From assembly GCA_019779905.1 (NCBI GenBank), contig JABAKE010000019.1, positions 1 through 64,000 of the forward strand: DNA of 64,000 nt, in the 5' to 3' direction. The notes below the pieces were generated by a model. The model saw only the letters and a program-made list of their open reading frames with translations, made no database searches and was not told the DNA's origin. The stretch is from Modestobacter lapidis. Lineage in GTDB: Bacteria; Actinomycetota; Actinomycetes; Mycobacteriales; Geodermatophilaceae. A program made the translations under genes and the position numbers. Each line of letters begins with the position of its first letter. The first letter of the stretch is position 1. Shown here one piece after another: positions 9,393 through 58,848 of the stretch.

Positions 9393-9473
9393 GTGATCGA
9401 TCTTGCGAGATCACCTATGAGCGCAGCACCGTCGGTCACGATGCCGACGAGCGCCAGCGAGGAGATGCAGTGA
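9393..9473 (+). CDS. Micro-ORF (26 aa) coupled to nusG
   Basis: GTG 9393, 44 nt after the secE stop and preceded by gaagaaggaa, reads 26 codons to TGA 9471-9473, which overlaps the nusG GTG (9470) as GTGA. The C-terminal part is [13 protein letters not shown]; the EE codons double as the nusG ribosome binding site. It is about 80% identical in DNA to the micro-ORF before rpsI (54862). It may act as a translated leader rather than a functional peptide. Confidence 0.5.
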
Positions 9474-50056: not shown

Positions 50057-50551
50057 TCAGACATGATCTCCGCCTCGCAGCTGGCTGACGATGTGCGGTA
50101 GCAGGGGCCCGAGCACGGCCAGGCCGTCGCGCACACCGCCGGTGGAGCCGGGCAGGTTGACGACCAGCGTCCGCCCCGCCGTGCCGGCCAGCCCGCGGGA
50201 CAGCACCGACGTCGGCACCGTGGGTGCGCCGTACCGGCGGACGGCCTCGGCGATCCCCGGCGCCTCCCGCTCGAGCACCAGCCGGGTCGCCTCCGGCGTG
50301 ACGTCGGTGGGGGACAGCCCGGTGCCGCCGGTGGTCAGCACGACGTCGACCCCACCGGCGACGGCTGCCCGCAGCACCTCGACCAGCGCGTCGACGTCGT
50401 CCGGCCGGACGTGCGGGCCCGCCACGGTGAAACCCAGCGCGCGCAGTCCGTCGGCCAGCAGCTGGCCGCTGGTGTCGGCGTAGACGCCGGCGGACGCCCG
50501 GTTGGACGCGGTGATCACGACGGCGCGGGCGCCGGCGGGCAGCTCGCTCAC
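50057..50551 (-). CDS. mog: Molybdopterin adenylyltransferase (MogA/MoaB family)
   Basis: 164 aa. ITASNRASAGVYADTSG, TTGGTGLSPTDVTPEAT and NLPGSTGGVRDGL are the MPT-binding motifs. Adenylates molybdopterin before Mo insertion by MoeA, encoded 900 bp upstream. GTG 50551 overlaps the stop of the last of four tandem micro-ORFs (GTGA), with gaggag 6 nt upstream. Confidence 0.92.
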   Translation of the reverse strand: MSELPAGARAVVITASNRASAGVYADTSGQLLADGLRALGFTVAGPHVRPDDVDALVEVLRAAVAGGVDVVLTTGGTGLSPTDVTPEATRLVLEREAPGIAEAVRRYGAPTVPTSVLSRGLAGTAGRTLVVNLPGSTGGVRDGLAVLGPLLPHIVSQLRGGDHV

Positions 50552-50628
50552 GTGATCTCCTCGCTGGCGCTCGTCGACCGCGTTCGCGACGCTGCTGTGC
50601 CCCTGGATGAGCTCGCGGGCTCGCTCAT
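50548..50628 (-). CDS. Relay micro-ORF 4 (26 aa), coupled to mog
   Basis: Begins MSEPASSSRG, ends STSASEEIT. Its stop overlaps the mog GTG as GTGA (50551-50548). Confidence 0.5.
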   Translation of the reverse strand: MSEPASSSRGTAASRTRSTSASEEIT

Positions 50629-50705
50629 CTGATCTCCTCGCTGACGCTCGTCGACCGCGTTCGCGACGCTGCTGTGCCCCTGGATGAGCTCGCGGGCTCG
50701 CTCAT
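50625..50705 (-). CDS. Relay micro-ORF 3 (26 aa)
   Basis: Same peptide as micro-ORF 2, ATGA overlaps at both ends. Confidence 0.5.
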   Translation of the reverse strand: MSEPASSSRGTAASRTRSTSVSEEIR

Positions 50706-50782
50706 CTGATCTCCTCGCTGACGCTCGTCGACCGCGTTCGCGACGCTGCTGTGCCCCTGGATGAGCTCGCGGGCTCGCTCAT
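50702..50782 (-). CDS. Relay micro-ORF 2 (26 aa)
   Basis: ATGA overlap at both ends. Begins MSEPASSSRG, ends STSVSEEIR; gaggag encoding EE is the binding site for the next ORF. Confidence 0.5.
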   Translation of the reverse strand: MSEPASSSRGTAASRTRSTSVSEEIR

Positions 50783-50859
50783 CTGATCTCCTCGCTGGCG
50801 CTCGTCGACCGCGTTCGCGACGCTGCTGTGCTCCTGGATGAGCTCGTGGGCTCGCTCAT
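50779..50859 (-). CDS. Relay micro-ORF 1 (26 aa) after moaC
   Basis: ATG at 50859 overlaps the moaC stop (TGATG). Begins [10 protein letters not shown], ends STSASEEIR. Its TGA overlaps the next ATG. Confidence 0.5.
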   Translation of the reverse strand: MSEPTSSSRSTAASRTRSTSASEEIR

Positions 50860-51332
50860 CAGCGGACCCAGTCGCCGCTCTTGCCACCGGACTTGGCCAG
50901 CAGCCGGATGTCGGTCACGGTGGCCCGCGGATCGACCGCCTTCACCATGTCGATCACGGTCAGCCCGGCGACGGCGACCGAGGTCAGCGCCTCCATCTCC
51001 ACCCCGGTGCGGTCCGCGGTGCGCGCGGTGGCGGTGATCTCCACGGCCTCGTCGGTGACCTCGATGTCGACGGTCACCCCGTGCAGCGCGATCGGGTGGC
51101 ACAGCGGGATCAGGTCCGGCGTCCGCTTGGCCCCGGCGATGCCGGCGATCCGGGCGACGGCGATCGCGTCGCCCTTGGGCACGCCGCGGCCGCGCAGCAG
51201 GGCGACGACCTCCGGGCTGACGAGCACCCGGCCGGCCGCCGTCGCCACCCGGGCGGTGACCGGCTTGGCGGTGACGTCGACCATCCGGGCGGCGCCGGAC
51301 TCGTCGACGTGGGTCAGTCGCTGCTCGCTCAC
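50859..51332 (-). CDS. moaC: Cyclic pyranopterin monophosphate synthase MoaC
   Basis: 157 aa. Second step of the first stage of molybdopterin synthesis. [34 protein letters not shown] and the Lys/Gly-rich KSGGKSGDW end are signatures. GTG 51332 overlaps the stop of a 28-codon micro-ORF. MoaA is not in the window. Confidence 0.95.
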
Positions 51333-51415
51333 TGCGCACTCCTGTTCGTCTCCGCTACTGCTCCGCTCCTCGCTCGCTGGCGCTCGCTGCGATGCTCACC
51401 GCAGCGTCGACTCAC
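51329..51415 (-). CDS. Micro-ORF (28 aa) bridging moeA and moaC
   Basis: GTG 51415 overlaps the moeA stop and TGA 51331-51329 overlaps the moaC GTG, both as GTGA. Arg/Ser-rich, ending AETNRSAQ. It reads through a dispersed element (gtgagcatcgcagcgagcg, 51372-51400) also found after glmS. aacagga inside it is the moaC binding site. Confidence 0.42.
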
Positions 51416-52617
51416 TGGAGCGCTCCTTCGATCAGCACGACGTCGACCTCGGTGCCGGCGGGCAGCTCGGTCACTGCCTCGGGGACGACGACGAGGCAGT
51501 TGGCGCGGGCGAGGTGGGCCACGAGATGGGAACCGGGCCCGCCGACCTGGGTGACCACCCCACCGTCGAACAGGCCGCGCAGGAACTGCCGCTTCCCGGC
51601 GGGGGAGCGCAGGCCCTCGGTGAGCCGCGCCGAGGTGCGCAGCCGGTCGGGCGAGGCGTGCCCGAGCGCGCGGCGCAGCGCCGGCCGGACGAACACCTCG
51701 AAGGAGACGAACGAGCTCACCGGGTTGCCCGGCAGGGTGACCACCGGGACGCCGTCCACGGTGCCGGCGCCCTGCGGCCCACCCGGCTGCATGGCCACCT
51801 TTCCGAACTCCACGGTGCCGAGCGCGCCGAACGCGTCCTTGACCACCTCGTAGGCGCCGGCGCTCACGCCACCGCTGGTGATCAGCAGGTCGGCGCCGAC
51901 CAGTTCGGCGCGCACGGTGCGCAGGAAGGTGTCGACGTCGTCGGGCACGAAGTGGAGGGTGCGCGCCTCCCCGCCGGCGTCGGCGACCGCGCCGGCCAGC
52001 AGCACCGAGTTGGACTCGTAGATCTGCCCCGGCGCCAGTGGTTCACCGGGGGCGACCAGCTCGCTCCCGGTGGAGAGGACCAGCACGCGGGGGCGGCGGC
52101 GCACCGGCAGGGTGGCGTGACCGACCGCGGCGGCCAGCCCGAGCTGGGTCGGACCGAGGGCGGTGCCGGCCGGCAGCGCCACGGCGCCGGCGGCGATGTC
52201 CTCCCCGGCGTGCCGTAGATGGGTGCCGGCGGCGGGGGAGCTGGTGATGGTGACGACGTCGGTGGCGCCGTCGGTGCGCTCCACCGGGACGACGACGTCC
52301 GCGCCGGCCGGCAGGGGTGCGCCGGTCATGATCCGGTGCACCGTGCCGGGGGCGAGCGCCGGGACGTCGGTGCGCCCGGCGGGGATGTCCGCGGCGACCG
52401 GCAGCCGGACCGGCGCCGCCTCGCTCGCCGCGCCGACCTCGGCCCAGCGGGCGGCGTAGCCGTCCATCGCCGAGTTGTCGAAGCCGGGCAGCGCGACCAG
52501 GGCGGGGAGGTCCGCGCCCAGTACCCGCCCGGCGGCCGCGGGCACCGCGACGTGCTCGACCGGCAGCAGCCCCAGGAGCCCGGCCACCACCGCCTGGTGT
52601 TCCTCGACGGTCCGCAC
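51412..52617 (-). CDS. moeA: Molybdopterin molybdenumtransferase MoeA
   Basis: 401 aa. Inserts molybdate into adenylated molybdopterin. LPGFDNSAMDGYA near residue 45, TGAPLPAGADVVVPVE, LITSGGVSAGAYE and TLPGNPVSSFVSFEVFV are family motifs. GTG 52617. First gene of the moeA-moaC-mog unit; divergent from the PfkB kinase. Confidence 0.96.
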   Translation of the reverse strand: MRTVEEHQAVVAGLLGLLPVEHVAVPAAAGRVLGADLPALVALPGFDNSAMDGYAARWAEVGAASEAAPVRLPVAADIPAGRTDVPALAPGTVHRIMTGAPLPAGADVVVPVERTDGATDVVTITSSPAAGTHLRHAGEDIAAGAVALPAGTALGPTQLGLAAAVGHATLPVRRRPRVLVLSTGSELVAPGEPLAPGQIYESNSVLLAGAVADAGGEARTLHFVPDDVDTFLRTVRAELVGADLLITSGGVSAGAYEVVKDAFGALGTVEFGKVAMQPGGPQGAGTVDGVPVVTLPGNPVSSFVSFEVFVRPALRRALGHASPDRLRTSARLTEGLRSPAGKRQFLRGLFDGGVVTQVGGPGSHLVAHLARANCLVVVPEAVTELPAGTEVDVVLIEGALQ

Positions 52618-54421: not shown

Positions 54422-54865
54422 GTGCGCACGTACTCCCCCAAGCCCGGTGACATCACCCGGGCCTGGCACGTCATCGACGCCACCGACGTGGTGCTCGGTC
54501 GACTGGCCAGCCAGACCGCCATCCTGCTGCGCGGCAAGCACAAGCCGCAGTTCGCCCCGCACGTGGACGCCGGTGACTTCGTCGTCATCGTCAACGCGGG
54601 CAAGGTGGCCCTCACCGGCTCGAAGCGCGAGACCAAGGTCGCCTACCGCCACTCGGGCTACCCGGGCGGCCTGCGGACGATCAATGTCGGCGACGAGCTC
54701 CAGACCCGCCCCGACCGCGTCATCGAGCGCGCCATCAAGGGCATGCTCCCGCACAACTCGCTGGGCCGGCAGATGATCTCCAAGCTCAAGGTGTACGCCG
54801 GGCCGGAGCACCCGCACGCCGCCCAGCAGCCCCAGACCTTCGAGATCAAGCAGGTGTCCCAGTGA
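54422..54865 (+). CDS. rplM: Ribosomal protein uL13
   Basis: 147 aa, [39 protein letters not shown] is conserved. GTG 54422 chosen to match homologue starts. The stop overlaps a micro-ORF (GTGA). A possible -10 TATCGT lies at 54290-54295. Confidence 0.97.
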
Positions 54866-54942
54866 CTGAGCCTGCGAAGTCACCCATCAGCATTGCACCG
54901 TCGGTCACAATGCCGACGAGCGCCAGCGAGGAGAGCAAGTGA
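54862..54942 (+). CDS. Micro-ORF (26 aa) bridging rplM and rpsI
   Basis: GTG 54862 overlaps the rplM stop and TGA 54940-54942 overlaps the rpsI GTG, both GTGA. Begins [10 protein letters not shown] and ends [13 protein letters not shown]. About 80% DNA identity to the nusG micro-ORF (9393-9473); shares the MxEP start and TSASEE end with the moaC-mog ORFs. gaggag encoding EE is the rpsI binding site. Confidence 0.55.
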
Positions 54943-56819: not shown

Positions 56820-58682
56820 ATGTGCGGCATCGTGGGGTACGTCGGCCCGCAGGACTCGTTGGACGTCGTCCTGGAAGGGCTGCGCCGGCTGGAGTACCGC
56901 GGCTATGACTCGGCAGGCGTCGCCGTGCTGGCCGGAGGCCGGCTGACGACGGCGAAGAAGGCGGGCAAGCTCGCCAACCTTGAGAAGGAGCTGGCCCAGG
57001 AGTCCCTGCCCGCCTCCACCATCGGGATCGGGCACACCCGCTGGGCCACGCACGGCGGTCCGACCGACCGCAACGCCCACCCGCACGTCTCCGCCGACGG
57101 CACCGTGGCGGTCGTCCACAACGGGATCATCGAGAACTTCGCCGCGCTGCGCGCCGAGTGCGAGGCGGCCGGCGTCGAGTTCTCCTCCGAGACCGACACC
57201 GAGGTCGTCGCCCACCTGCTGGCCGCCGAGTACCGCGAGCTGCCCGCCGGGCGGAGCCGGCTGGCCGCTGCCATGCGGGCGGTCAGCCGCCGGCTCGAGG
57301 GCGCGTTCACCCTGGTGGTCACGCACGCCGACGAGCCCGACCGGCTGGTCGCCTCCCGTCGCAACAGTCCGCTGGTGGTCGGCGTCGGCGACGGCGAGTA
57401 CTTCCTCGGCTCCGACGTCGCCGCGTTCATCGCGCACACCAAGGAGGCCCTCGAGCTGGGCCAGGACCAGGTCGTCGAGATCGACCGCACCGACGGCGTC
57501 ACGGTCACCGACTTCGCCGGCGCCGAGGTCGGCGCCACCCCGTACACCGTCGACTGGGATGCCGCGGCCGCCGAGAAGGGCGGCTACGACTGGTTCATGC
57601 TGAAGGAGATCGCCGAGCAGCCCAAGGCGGTTGCCGACACGCTGCTGGGCCGGCTCAGCGACAACGGCGAGCTGGTCCTCGACGAACTGCGGCTGGCCGA
57701 GCAGGACCTCCGCGACGTCGACAAGGTCTTCGTCGTCGCCTGCGGGACGGCGTACCACGCCGGGCTGATCGCCAAGTACGCGATCGAGCACTGGACCCGG
57801 ATCCCGGTCGAGGTCGAGCTGGCCAGCGAGTTCCGGTACCGCGACCCGGTGCTCGACCGCAGCACGCTGGTCGTGGTCGTCAGCCAGTCCGGCGAGACCA
57901 TGGACACCCTGATGGCGCTGCGGCACGCCAAGGAGCAGAAGGCCAAGGTCCTGGCCATCTGCAACGCTAACGGCTCGACGATCCCGCGCGAGTCCGACGC
58001 GGTCCTCTACACGCACGCCGGTCCCGAGGTCGCCGTCGCCTCGACCAAGGGCTTCCTCACCCAGGTGGTCGCCTGCTACCTGGTCGGGTTGTTCCTGGCC
58101 CAGGTCCGCGGGGTCAAGTACGCCGACGAGGTCGGCGCGATCGTCGACGACCTGCGCGCGCTGCCCGAGCAGGTGACCGCGGTCCTCGCCACCATGGAGC
58201 CGGTGCGCGAGCTCGCCCGGTCGCTGGCGACGGAGGACACGCTGCTGTTCCTCGGCCGGCACGTGGGCTACCCGGTCGCGCTGGAAGGTGCGCTCAAGCT
58301 CAAGGAGCTGGCGTACATCCACGCGGAGGGCTTCGCCGCCGGTGAGCTCAAGCACGGTTCGATCGCGCTGATCGACCAGGGCACCCCGGTCGTCGTCATC
58401 GTCCCCTCGCCGCTGAGCCGCGAGTCGGTGCACGGCAAGGTGGTCAGCAACATCCAGGAGGTCCGGGCCCGCGGCGCGCGGACGATCGTGATCGCCGAGG
58501 AGGGCGACGACGACGTCGTGCCCTACGCCGACCACCTCATCCGGGTGCCGCGCACCCCGACCCTGCTCGCCCCCGTCGTGACGACGGTGCCGCTGCAGGT
58601 GCTGGCCTGCGAGATCGCCGCCACCCGCGGCCTGGACGTCGACCAGCCGCGCAACCTGGCGAAGAGCGTCACCGTCGAGTGA
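56820..58682 (+). CDS. glmS: Glutamine-fructose-6-phosphate aminotransferase
   Basis: 620 aa from ATG 56820, which places the nucleophile Cys2 (MCGIVGYVG) correctly; the frame open to 56775 would bury it. Glutaminase domain 1-240; two SIS domains with SQSGETMDTL and STKGFLTQV. A -10-like TACCCT ends 7 nt before the ATG and no binding site is seen, so the mRNA may be leaderless. Feeds GlmM product synthesis. Confidence 0.97.
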   Translation: MCGIVGYVGPQDSLDVVLEGLRRLEYRGYDSAGVAVLAGGRLTTAKKAGKLANLEKELAQESLPASTIGIGHTRWATHGGPTDRNAHPHVSADGTVAVVHNGIIENFAALRAECEAAGVEFSSETDTEVVAHLLAAEYRELPAGRSRLAAAMRAVSRRLEGAFTLVVTHADEPDRLVASRRNSPLVVGVGDGEYFLGSDVAAFIAHTKEALELGQDQVVEIDRTDGVTVTDFAGAEVGATPYTVDWDAAAAEKGGYDWFMLKEIAEQPKAVADTLLGRLSDNGELVLDELRLAEQDLRDVDKVFVVACGTAYHAGLIAKYAIEHWTRIPVEVELASEFRYRDPVLDRSTLVVVVSQSGETMDTLMALRHAKEQKAKVLAICNANGSTIPRESDAVLYTHAGPEVAVASTKGFLTQVVACYLVGLFLAQVRGVKYADEVGAIVDDLRALPEQVTAVLATMEPVRELARSLATEDTLLFLGRHVGYPVALEGALKLKELAYIHAEGFAAGELKHGSIALIDQGTPVVVIVPSPLSRESVHGKVVSNIQEVRARGARTIVIAEEGDDDVVPYADHLIRVPRTPTLLAPVVTTVPLQVLACEIAATRGLDVDQPRNLAKSVTVE

Positions 58683-58848
58683 CGCCGCTGTGAGCATCGC
58701 AGCGAGCGCCAGCGAGCGAGGAGCGGAGCAGGGGCGGAACCGACGTGGGGGCACCGTCGAGTGACGCCGCTGTGAGCGAGCGCCAGCGAGCGCCAGCGAG
58801 CGAGGAGCGGAGCAGGGGCGGAACCGACGTGGGGGCACCGTCGAGTGA
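58671..58848 (+). repeat. Tandem element duplicating the glmS 3' end
   Basis: The last 12 bases of glmS (accgtcgagtga, 58671-58682) recur at 58753-58764 and 58837-58848. Between them lie two near-identical segments of 70 and 72 bp containing gccagcgagcgaggagcgg. The layout resembles an element with direct repeats of its target. Confidence 0.88.
58690..58764 (+). CDS. Micro-ORF (24 aa) in the glmS-acpS gap
   Basis: Part of a chain: the glmS stop overlaps GTG 58679 (4 codons, MTPL), whose stop overlaps GTG 58690. This 24-codon frame ends GGTVE, as glmS ends VTVE. Its stop overlaps GTG 58761, a second MTPL frame, whose stop overlaps GTG 58772. All junctions are GTGA. Likely a by-product of the duplicated element, but it extends the coupling pattern. 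Confidence 0.3.
   Translation: MSIAASASERGAEQGRNRRGGTVE

Follow-up and report, generated by a model that had tools for sequence, protein, structure and literature searches.

A MIRU-like 77-bp interspersed element at the moaC-mog junction of Modestobacter lapidis

MIRUs are the described elements closest to the array reported here. In the parts of the literature consulted, they appear mobile and insert at start codons, with an internal ORF coupled at -4 (PMC12548453, citing Supply 1997). The consulted text of the same paper places them in many mycobacteria and states that their insertion likely has minimal impact on expression (PMC12548453). A unit is 40-100 bp long, and class I units measure 77 bp (PMC2734929, PMC4213456, and PMC4128351, each in the sections consulted). 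According to excerpts of these papers, MIRUs are present at 41 places in M. tuberculosis H37Rv (PMC2734929), senX3-regX3 of H37Rv holds three 77-bp MIRUs, which at this locus are limited to M. leprae and the M. tuberculosis complex (PMC4213456), and in M. bovis a class I MIRU makes up the whole of a 77-nt 5' UTR (PMC4128351).

In this study, we analysed an array of 77-bp units between moaC and mog in a window of 64,000 nucleotides from Modestobacter lapidis, the window being the whole stretch of DNA that was analysed. The unit has the size of a class I MIRU, with a net length of 77 bp in 77 of 89 distinct units from the family Geodermatophilaceae. It is interspersed, occurring at 35 places in one genome, four of which are arrays, and at 31 of the 35 places its anatomy is that of an insertion at a start codon with an ORF predicted to be coupled at -4. 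Empty orthologous sites were found at three junctions. The host is Modestobacter and not a mycobacterium, and the likeness is one of anatomy, not of consensus sequence; therefore, we call the element MIRU-like and not a MIRU. Its 3' part may resemble the mycobacterial MIRU. Compared with class I MIRUs, the element is present in Geodermatophilaceae and several further actinobacterial groups, and it has covarying hairpins that involve both of its RTGA ends (R, A or G), which the consulted portions of the MIRU papers do not mention.

Two further kinds of described systems are similar in part. Like the upstream ORFs that deliver ribosomes, the unit carries a micro-ORF coupled to the next start, and unlike those in the consulted part of the source, it is repeated at many genes, looks mobile, and is not conserved at moaC-mog (PMC12548453). 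The TAACTGA direct repeats of Beggiatoaceae are likewise abundant, short, and intergenic, and differ in sequence and length, judging by their description in the consulted part of the paper (PMC4679880). A search of mostly open-access literature gave, among the matches listed, no description of the element outside mycobacteria. New in this study are named carriers outside mycobacteria and two covarying hairpins that pair the RTGA ends with internal GAAY/TCAY.

The array and its sister copies in the genome

The preliminary description had reported four tandem 77-bp repeats between moaC and mog, each an open 26-codon frame with its own GAGGAG and each overlapping the next, and this anatomy was borne out in full. 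The whole chain runs on the minus strand of the window, where Pfam supported MoaC, a MoCF_biosynth domain protein (mog), and MoeA. As shown in Table 1, the moaC stop TGA at 50861-50859 (-) gives its final A to the ATG of the first micro-ORF (TGATG), ATGA overlaps join the units at three joints, and the TGA of unit 4 sits within the mog GTGA at 50551-50548 (-). GAGGAG stands 5 nt before the next start in every unit. Tandem Repeats Finder gave a period of 77, 4.1 copies, 97% matches, and a score of 596. Any pair of units has at most 4 differences over 81 positions, and units 2 and 3 are identical. Because the genome lies in 383 contigs, the count of four units may be an estimate made by the assembly. 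The sense strand of the array contained no TANNNT (-10-like) promoter motif. Rfam found nothing at gathering score over 50300-51500 and only 4 tRNAs in the whole window, and plasmid and phage searches gave no match to the array.

Table 1. Positions of the array, its flanking genes, and related elements in the window
Feature	Position	Strand	Basis or remark
mog (MoCF_biosynth domain), downstream gene, GTG start	50057..50551	-	Pfam 2.6e-29
Unit 4, micro-ORF MSEPASSSRGTAASRTRSTSASEEIT*	50548..50628	-	TGA inside mog GTGA start
H3 of unit 4, ACGCGGTC-GA-C-GA-GC[GCCA]GC-GA-G-GA-GATCACGT	50550..50583	-	Holds GAGGAG, reaches mog GTGA
GAGGAG, Shine-Dalgarno-like	50557..50562	-	5 nt before mog GTG
GAGGAG equivalents in other units	50634-50639, 50711-50716, 50788-50793	-	Sequence
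Unit 3	50625..50705	-	Same sequence as unit 2
Unit 2, micro-ORF MSEPASSSRGTAASRTRSTSVSEEIR*	50702..50782	-	ATGA overlap with units 1 and 3
Unit 1	50779..50859	-	ATG overlaps moaC stop as TGATG
H1 of unit 1, ATGAGC pairs with GCTCAT; same arms in units 2-4	50838..50859	-	Covariation
moaC, upstream gene	50859..51332	-	Pfam MoaC 1.1e-50
Second, different RTGA-to-RTGA insert, moeA-moaC, 28-codon frame	51329..51415	-	Sequence
Single element copy before 298-codon open frame	9393..9473	+	R1 match
Single element copy	54862..54942	+	R1 match

A covariance model, R1, was made from 44 distinct Modestobacter units and searched against the window's own genome. At an E-value of 1.9e-8 or below, 44 element copies were found at 35 places, with unit 4 of the array as the top match; 150 of 18767 first-look candidates were scored, and a further 9 matches, weaker and with E-values of up to 0.01, were not counted. 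The element is single at 31 places, double at one, triple at one, and fourfold at two. We then asked of each place whether its 3' RTG starts a frame of at least 100 codons with a codon-usage rank of 1 among 6 (downstream test), and whether its 5' TGA is the stop of such a long frame (upstream test). The downstream test was passed at 31 of the 35 places, the upstream test at 23, and both at 21, as against 128, 20, and 9 of 772 control RTGA sites in the window. Of the four places that failed downstream, three have no intact 3' TGA and the fourth ends in CTGA (rank 4). A second stop codon adjoins the left TGA at three places, moaC-mog among them. At nine of the 35, the left TGA neither closes a long frame nor has an abutting stop, and the upstream side of several of these has a non-coding score; at several places, the element thus seems to sit at a gene start. 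Therefore, coupling is not the sole reason for the choice of site. The inserts lie in the sense direction.

Some copies in this genome depart from the common form. Those at C275:135421 (L247), C90:179721, and C89:42790 were matched over 73 nt (net 69), and if these ends are right, the micro-ORF would be fused in frame to the downstream gene rather than overlap it by -4, a fusion read by eye at C275:135421 only. A further four-unit array lies at C10:133006-133317 (L253); its units 1 and 3 are alike and units 2 and 4 have another base in common, hinting that this array may have grown by pairwise duplication.

Filled and empty sites were compared within the genus. moaC and mog are adjacent in 24 of 24 loci, and the array is present in the window genome only. 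The other 23 loci are all empty: the two genes share the four bases RTGA (-4) in 22 and are separated by one base in the remaining locus, spacing being taken from the in-frame start closest to the stop. The -4 overlap was found in 97 of 104 loci carrying both moaC and mog, a set that includes some records held twice. The empty site of the nearest relative reads TGACGTGA (gap +1), and therefore the exact sequence at moaC-mog before insertion is unsure. At nuoD-nuoE (nuoE identified by Pfam 2Fe-2S thioredoxin, nuoD inferred), 3 of 19 genus loci are filled, the window genome included, one has another repeat, and 15 are empty (11 with RTGA, 4 with TGATGA). At nuoF-nuoG, with both gene names inferred, 2 of 19 are filled and 17 are empty (12 with RTGA, 5 with TGATGA). 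The inserts at both nuo junctions leave RTGA at each end, and filled and empty sites differ by the overlap insert.

The preceding junction, moeA-moaC, carries the second insert of Table 1, which is absent from the own-genome matches of R1. Read by eye, this junction is a plain overlap in 21 of 24 genus loci, and inserts were seen in this genome, in L150, and in L157, where the insert is short. Similar-looking inserts are present at moeA-moaC in two Blastococcus loci (L063 and L067). The core of the insert, GAGCGCCAGCGAGCGAGGAGCGGAGC, recurs at 58704 and 58788, within two tandem 84-bp copies at 58670-58848 that may be a cousin of it.

Occurrence in other genomes and the open frame

A DNA search of 39 relatives, with up to 19 candidates scored per genome, matched 24, comprising all 23 Modestobacter genomes and one weak match outside the genus. 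In the order-wide R1 search, in which 15 candidates per genome were scored and not all matches were read, 122 of 298 genomes matched at E 1e-4, including 49 of 51 from the element's own family. From 12 genomes of four other families of the order, 30 loci were fetched, yielding 38 distinct units. RTGA was present at both ends of 26 of these, at net lengths of 77 (14), 80 (10), 79 (1), and 65 bp (1). A 65-bp form was found in genus g8, which is probably Mycobacterium; its peptides resemble MSEACERIIG..RACEVAA, and it is tandem in some genomes. Matches were obtained in 62 of 198 g8 genomes, a count that is overstated because several matches are a coding gene and not the element, at least 7 of 30 fetched g8 loci (L297, L298, L301, L303, L305, L306, and L308) holding one such gene. 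A plasmid search with one g8 unit found none.

Among named genomes, 13 of 24 matched at E 1e-5. The matches numbered 52 in Blastococcus CT_GayMR19, 32 in Geodermatophilus TF02-6, 18 in Blastococcus VKM Ac-2987, 12 in G. dictyosporus, 9 each in B. haudaquaticus and B. aurantiacus, 6 in Nocardioides soli, and 4 each in Blastococcus LR1 and Modestobacter VKM Ac-2984. Klenkia taihuensis, Jidongwangia, Nocardioides Root240, and Kitasatospora GAS204B had one each. At the same threshold, no match was found in two Actinoplanes, a Frankiales MAG, Parafrankia, Frankia nepalensis, N. potassii, four Streptomyces, and K. aureofaciens. Each of the nine copies from Nocardioides, Jidongwangia, and Kitasatospora has a frame open to its terminal TGA, and in seven of them both ends are RTGA. 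A phylum-wide sample run with strict filters and 15 candidates scored per genome matched 4 of 296 genomes at E 1e-6, all from one and the same order; since copies in Nocardioides and Kitasatospora are known, such a search can miss some.

The preliminary description had proposed a comparison of phase in related genomes, and most units keep the overlap phase. The 89 distinct Geodermatophilaceae units are those with RTGA at both ends, 10 without it at one end having been dropped. A net length of 2 mod 3, which keeps the phase, was found in 83 of the 89, each of them with a frame that runs open to the last TGA. Six break the phase, four at 0 mod 3, three of which would give an in-frame fusion with the gene, and two at 1 mod 3. 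The other common net lengths, 80 and 65, are likewise 2 mod 3. Among the Geodermatophilaceae units of any length other than 77, the phase is kept in 6 of 12, which taken alone is little above chance. In the other families, 25 of 26 units are in phase (12 without RTGA at an end dropped), and 11 of the 12 that are not 77 long are 2 mod 3.

The frame itself was examined in alignment A1, which holds the 44 genus units, and was open in 39 and not open in 5. The 39 ungapped rows contain no premature stop, against 7.3 expected, and none of 300 simulations was as low; the 5 gapped rows were excluded from this test, and one of them (L056) has an early stop. Entropies at codon positions 1, 2, and 3 were 0.674, 0.604, and 0.545, the third position being the least variable. 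Pfam had no family matching the two unit peptides tested, and the peptides differ widely between families. Open frames are thus kept with no codon-position signature, and therefore it is open passage that is kept, not a product. Judging from the anatomy, ribosomes would actually use this passage.

Hairpins at the two RTGA ends

Hairpin H1 pairs the 5' RTGANC with an internal GN'TCAY. In A1, 90.3% of its cells were paired, and four pairs showed changes on both sides. Double-change cells numbered 20, compared with 5.0 in shuffled alignments, which leave the shared ancestry of the copies in place, and none of 500 shuffles was as high. When the partner was slid, at most 49.2% of cells were paired. 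Columns 3-4 against 19-20 read GA/TC in 32, GA/GA in 11, and GG/CC in 1 of the 44 units, and no unit has any other state, a pattern that suggests pairing of the Watson-Crick or tandem G.A type; columns 5/18 show G-C, C-G, A-U, and U-A. The result recurred in another alignment, of 14 genus units and 28 from other families (42 in all), where 82.7% of cells were paired, with 18 double-change cells compared with 2.5. The stem is kept in two units that have lost the RTG, as CCGAGC/GCTCGG (L216) and GCGAGC/GCTCGC (L226). In one unit whose fold was computed, H1 is not part of the minimum-energy structure.

Hairpin H3, in which GAGGAG lies, joins the RTGA of the 3' end to an internal GAAY or TCAY. In A1, 77.1% of its cells were standard pairs, and the covariation score was above all shuffles; two of five measures did not exceed the shuffles (number of double-change pairs, with 182 of 500 shuffles as high; further pair types, with 332 of 500). 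H3 arms paired better within their own unit than after swapping between units, at 207 versus 183.5 +- 4.5 in the genus, 156 versus 129.4 +- 4.5 in other families, and 173 versus 148.5 +- 3.4 in g8, with 0 of 2000 permutations as high in each set. These sets held 40 of 44 genus units and 24 of 28 other-family units (4 without the core dropped from each), and 18 g8 units. A middle hairpin, H2, was dropped despite 74.8% paired cells, above most shuffles, as its register varies; a slide of -2 raises its double-change cells, and part of it is common to an H3 arm.

The R of each end also tends to match its own internal Y. In the 44 genus units, the left pair is G-C in 28, A-T in 10, G-T in 3, A-C in 2, and G-G in 1. 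In 20 distinct g8 units, which were chosen by a pattern requiring RTGA ends and GCGAAY and leaving the R-Y match free, the left pair is A-T in 15 and G-C in 5, and the right pair is A-T in 14, G-C in 5, and G-T in 1. Stems are alike in several families. Whole-unit folding energy was ordinary (mean z -0.16 over 72 units, 38 negative), and that of the middle stretch was weak (mean z -0.50, 48 of 72 negative). Whole-unit folding energy is not significant, and therefore the claim of structure stands on covariation; the subterminal one-strand hairpins typical of IS200/IS605 and REP are found here by the covariation of H1 and H3, not by folding energy. G.U-type cells numbered 26 and A.C-type cells 14 on the sense strand, an excess that favours the sense strand, not RNA over DNA. 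The pairing of the RTGA ends with the unit's own internal tetranucleotide could serve either as a targeting guide or to hide the start and Shine-Dalgarno sequence in mRNA. In Nocardioides soli (L328-L333), the 3' stem has up to 12 perfect base pairs, including TCAT/ATGA (L329), and the loop region reads GGAGCGAAGCGAG, with GCGAAGC. GCGAAGC forms a very stable DNA mini-hairpin.

Explanations for the element

We consider it probable that the array is a MIRU-like, mobile-looking short interspersed element that is camouflaged by preserving translational coupling. In this proposal, a 77-bp unit would have inserted at the moaC-mog stop-start junction and then grown to four tandem copies. The element sits at RTGA, which is either the four bases shared by a stop codon and the following start or the RTGA start of a gene. 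It has RTGA ends of its own, an open frame of 2 mod 3, and GAGGAG before the 3' RTGA, and with these three features a ribosome leaving the upstream gene could restart on the unit and then on the downstream gene, so that the element would rebuild the overlap that it interrupts. The micro-ORF would act as camouflage, allowing the element to stay in an operon with translation still coupled, and the peptide would be irrelevant. The element may still be moving, and it is camouflage rather than regulation that selection would have favoured.

The chain had been read in the preliminary description as a route that hands the ribosome from moaC to mog, possibly tuning mog. The anatomy of that chain was right; it is not a device specific to mog, since none of the 23 other genus loci has the array and the unit is also present at 34 other places in the genome. 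For the same two reasons, we hold it improbable that mog is tuned, or the mRNA shielded from Rho, through the number of units or through unbroken translation, in spite of the fitting position and phase and of a correlation between repeat length upstream of a mycobacterial gene and its expression, given in the consulted part of PMC2734929. Still less credible is the earlier suggestion that the units encode functional peptides. The kept frames with their lack of premature stops would agree with it, and it is not supported by the third codon position, which varies least, by Pfam, which had no match to the two peptides tested, or by the wide peptide differences between families. A different possibility is that the hairpins are an RNA device in which the starts and GAGGAG lie in stems opened only by a ribosome arriving from upstream, so that strict coupling is kept. 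We regard this as possible and give it limited weight: the covariation of H1, the better pairing of H3 arms within units in all three sets, and the G.U excess on the sense strand are in line with it, whereas the ordinary whole-unit folding energy, the H1 stem kept in L216 and L226 although the RTG is lost, the two H3 measures not above shuffles, and the lack of conservation of the array at moaC-mog are not. The covariation might also have arisen as a side effect of quasi-palindrome correction or of kinship among the copies, with no structure under selection and the elements being only phase-keeping repeats. Template-switch repair can perfect inverted repeats, and the copies have ancestry in common that the shuffles leave in; however, the several pair types at columns 5/18, the restricted states at columns 3-4/19-20, and the likeness of stems in several families make this explanation unlikely.

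The hairpins may instead mark a single-stranded-DNA element like IS200/IS605 or REP, with the internal GAAY/TCAY guiding it to RTGA by pairing, a possibility that we hold only tentatively. The match between end R and own Y points this way (38 of 44 G-C or A-T at the left end in the genus; 20 of 20 left and 19 of 20 right in g8, with one G-T), and tetranucleotide guides for IS200/IS605 cleavage sites are described in the consulted part of PMC8266576. As far as the consulted parts of PMC8266576 and PMC6006769 go, REP and IS200/IS605 are also short, with one-strand structure and a tetranucleotide at a hairpin. Unlike them, the present element inserts in sense direction at gene starts and has an open frame of fixed phase, and its tetranucleotide is one strand of the stem foot, whereas the described guides lie 5' of the palindrome. 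A search for the Y1 transposase (PF01797) was negative in all 32 genomes covered, 22 of them from the genus and 10 from other carriers of the element; a control search was positive in 5 of 14 named genomes. A broader proposal, somewhat speculative at present, is that a widespread actinobacterial mobile class targets the RTGA overlap of stop and start codons by base pairing, each end being a hairpin that pairs RTGA with an internal GAAY or TCAY through Watson-Crick or tandem G.A pairs, and is moved by a non-Y1 enzyme, with MIRUs as one branch.

MIRU copy number is widely used for typing tuberculosis strains. In this study, the MIRU-like way of life is placed in Modestobacter, Blastococcus, and Geodermatophilus, and such actinobacteria offer numerous copies for comparison, with orthologous sites both filled and empty. 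If the RTGA-pairing hairpins are a recognition signal, the question of how MIRUs move would become a search for a specific enzyme. If the hairpins act in mRNA, they would provide a ready test of strict translational coupling.
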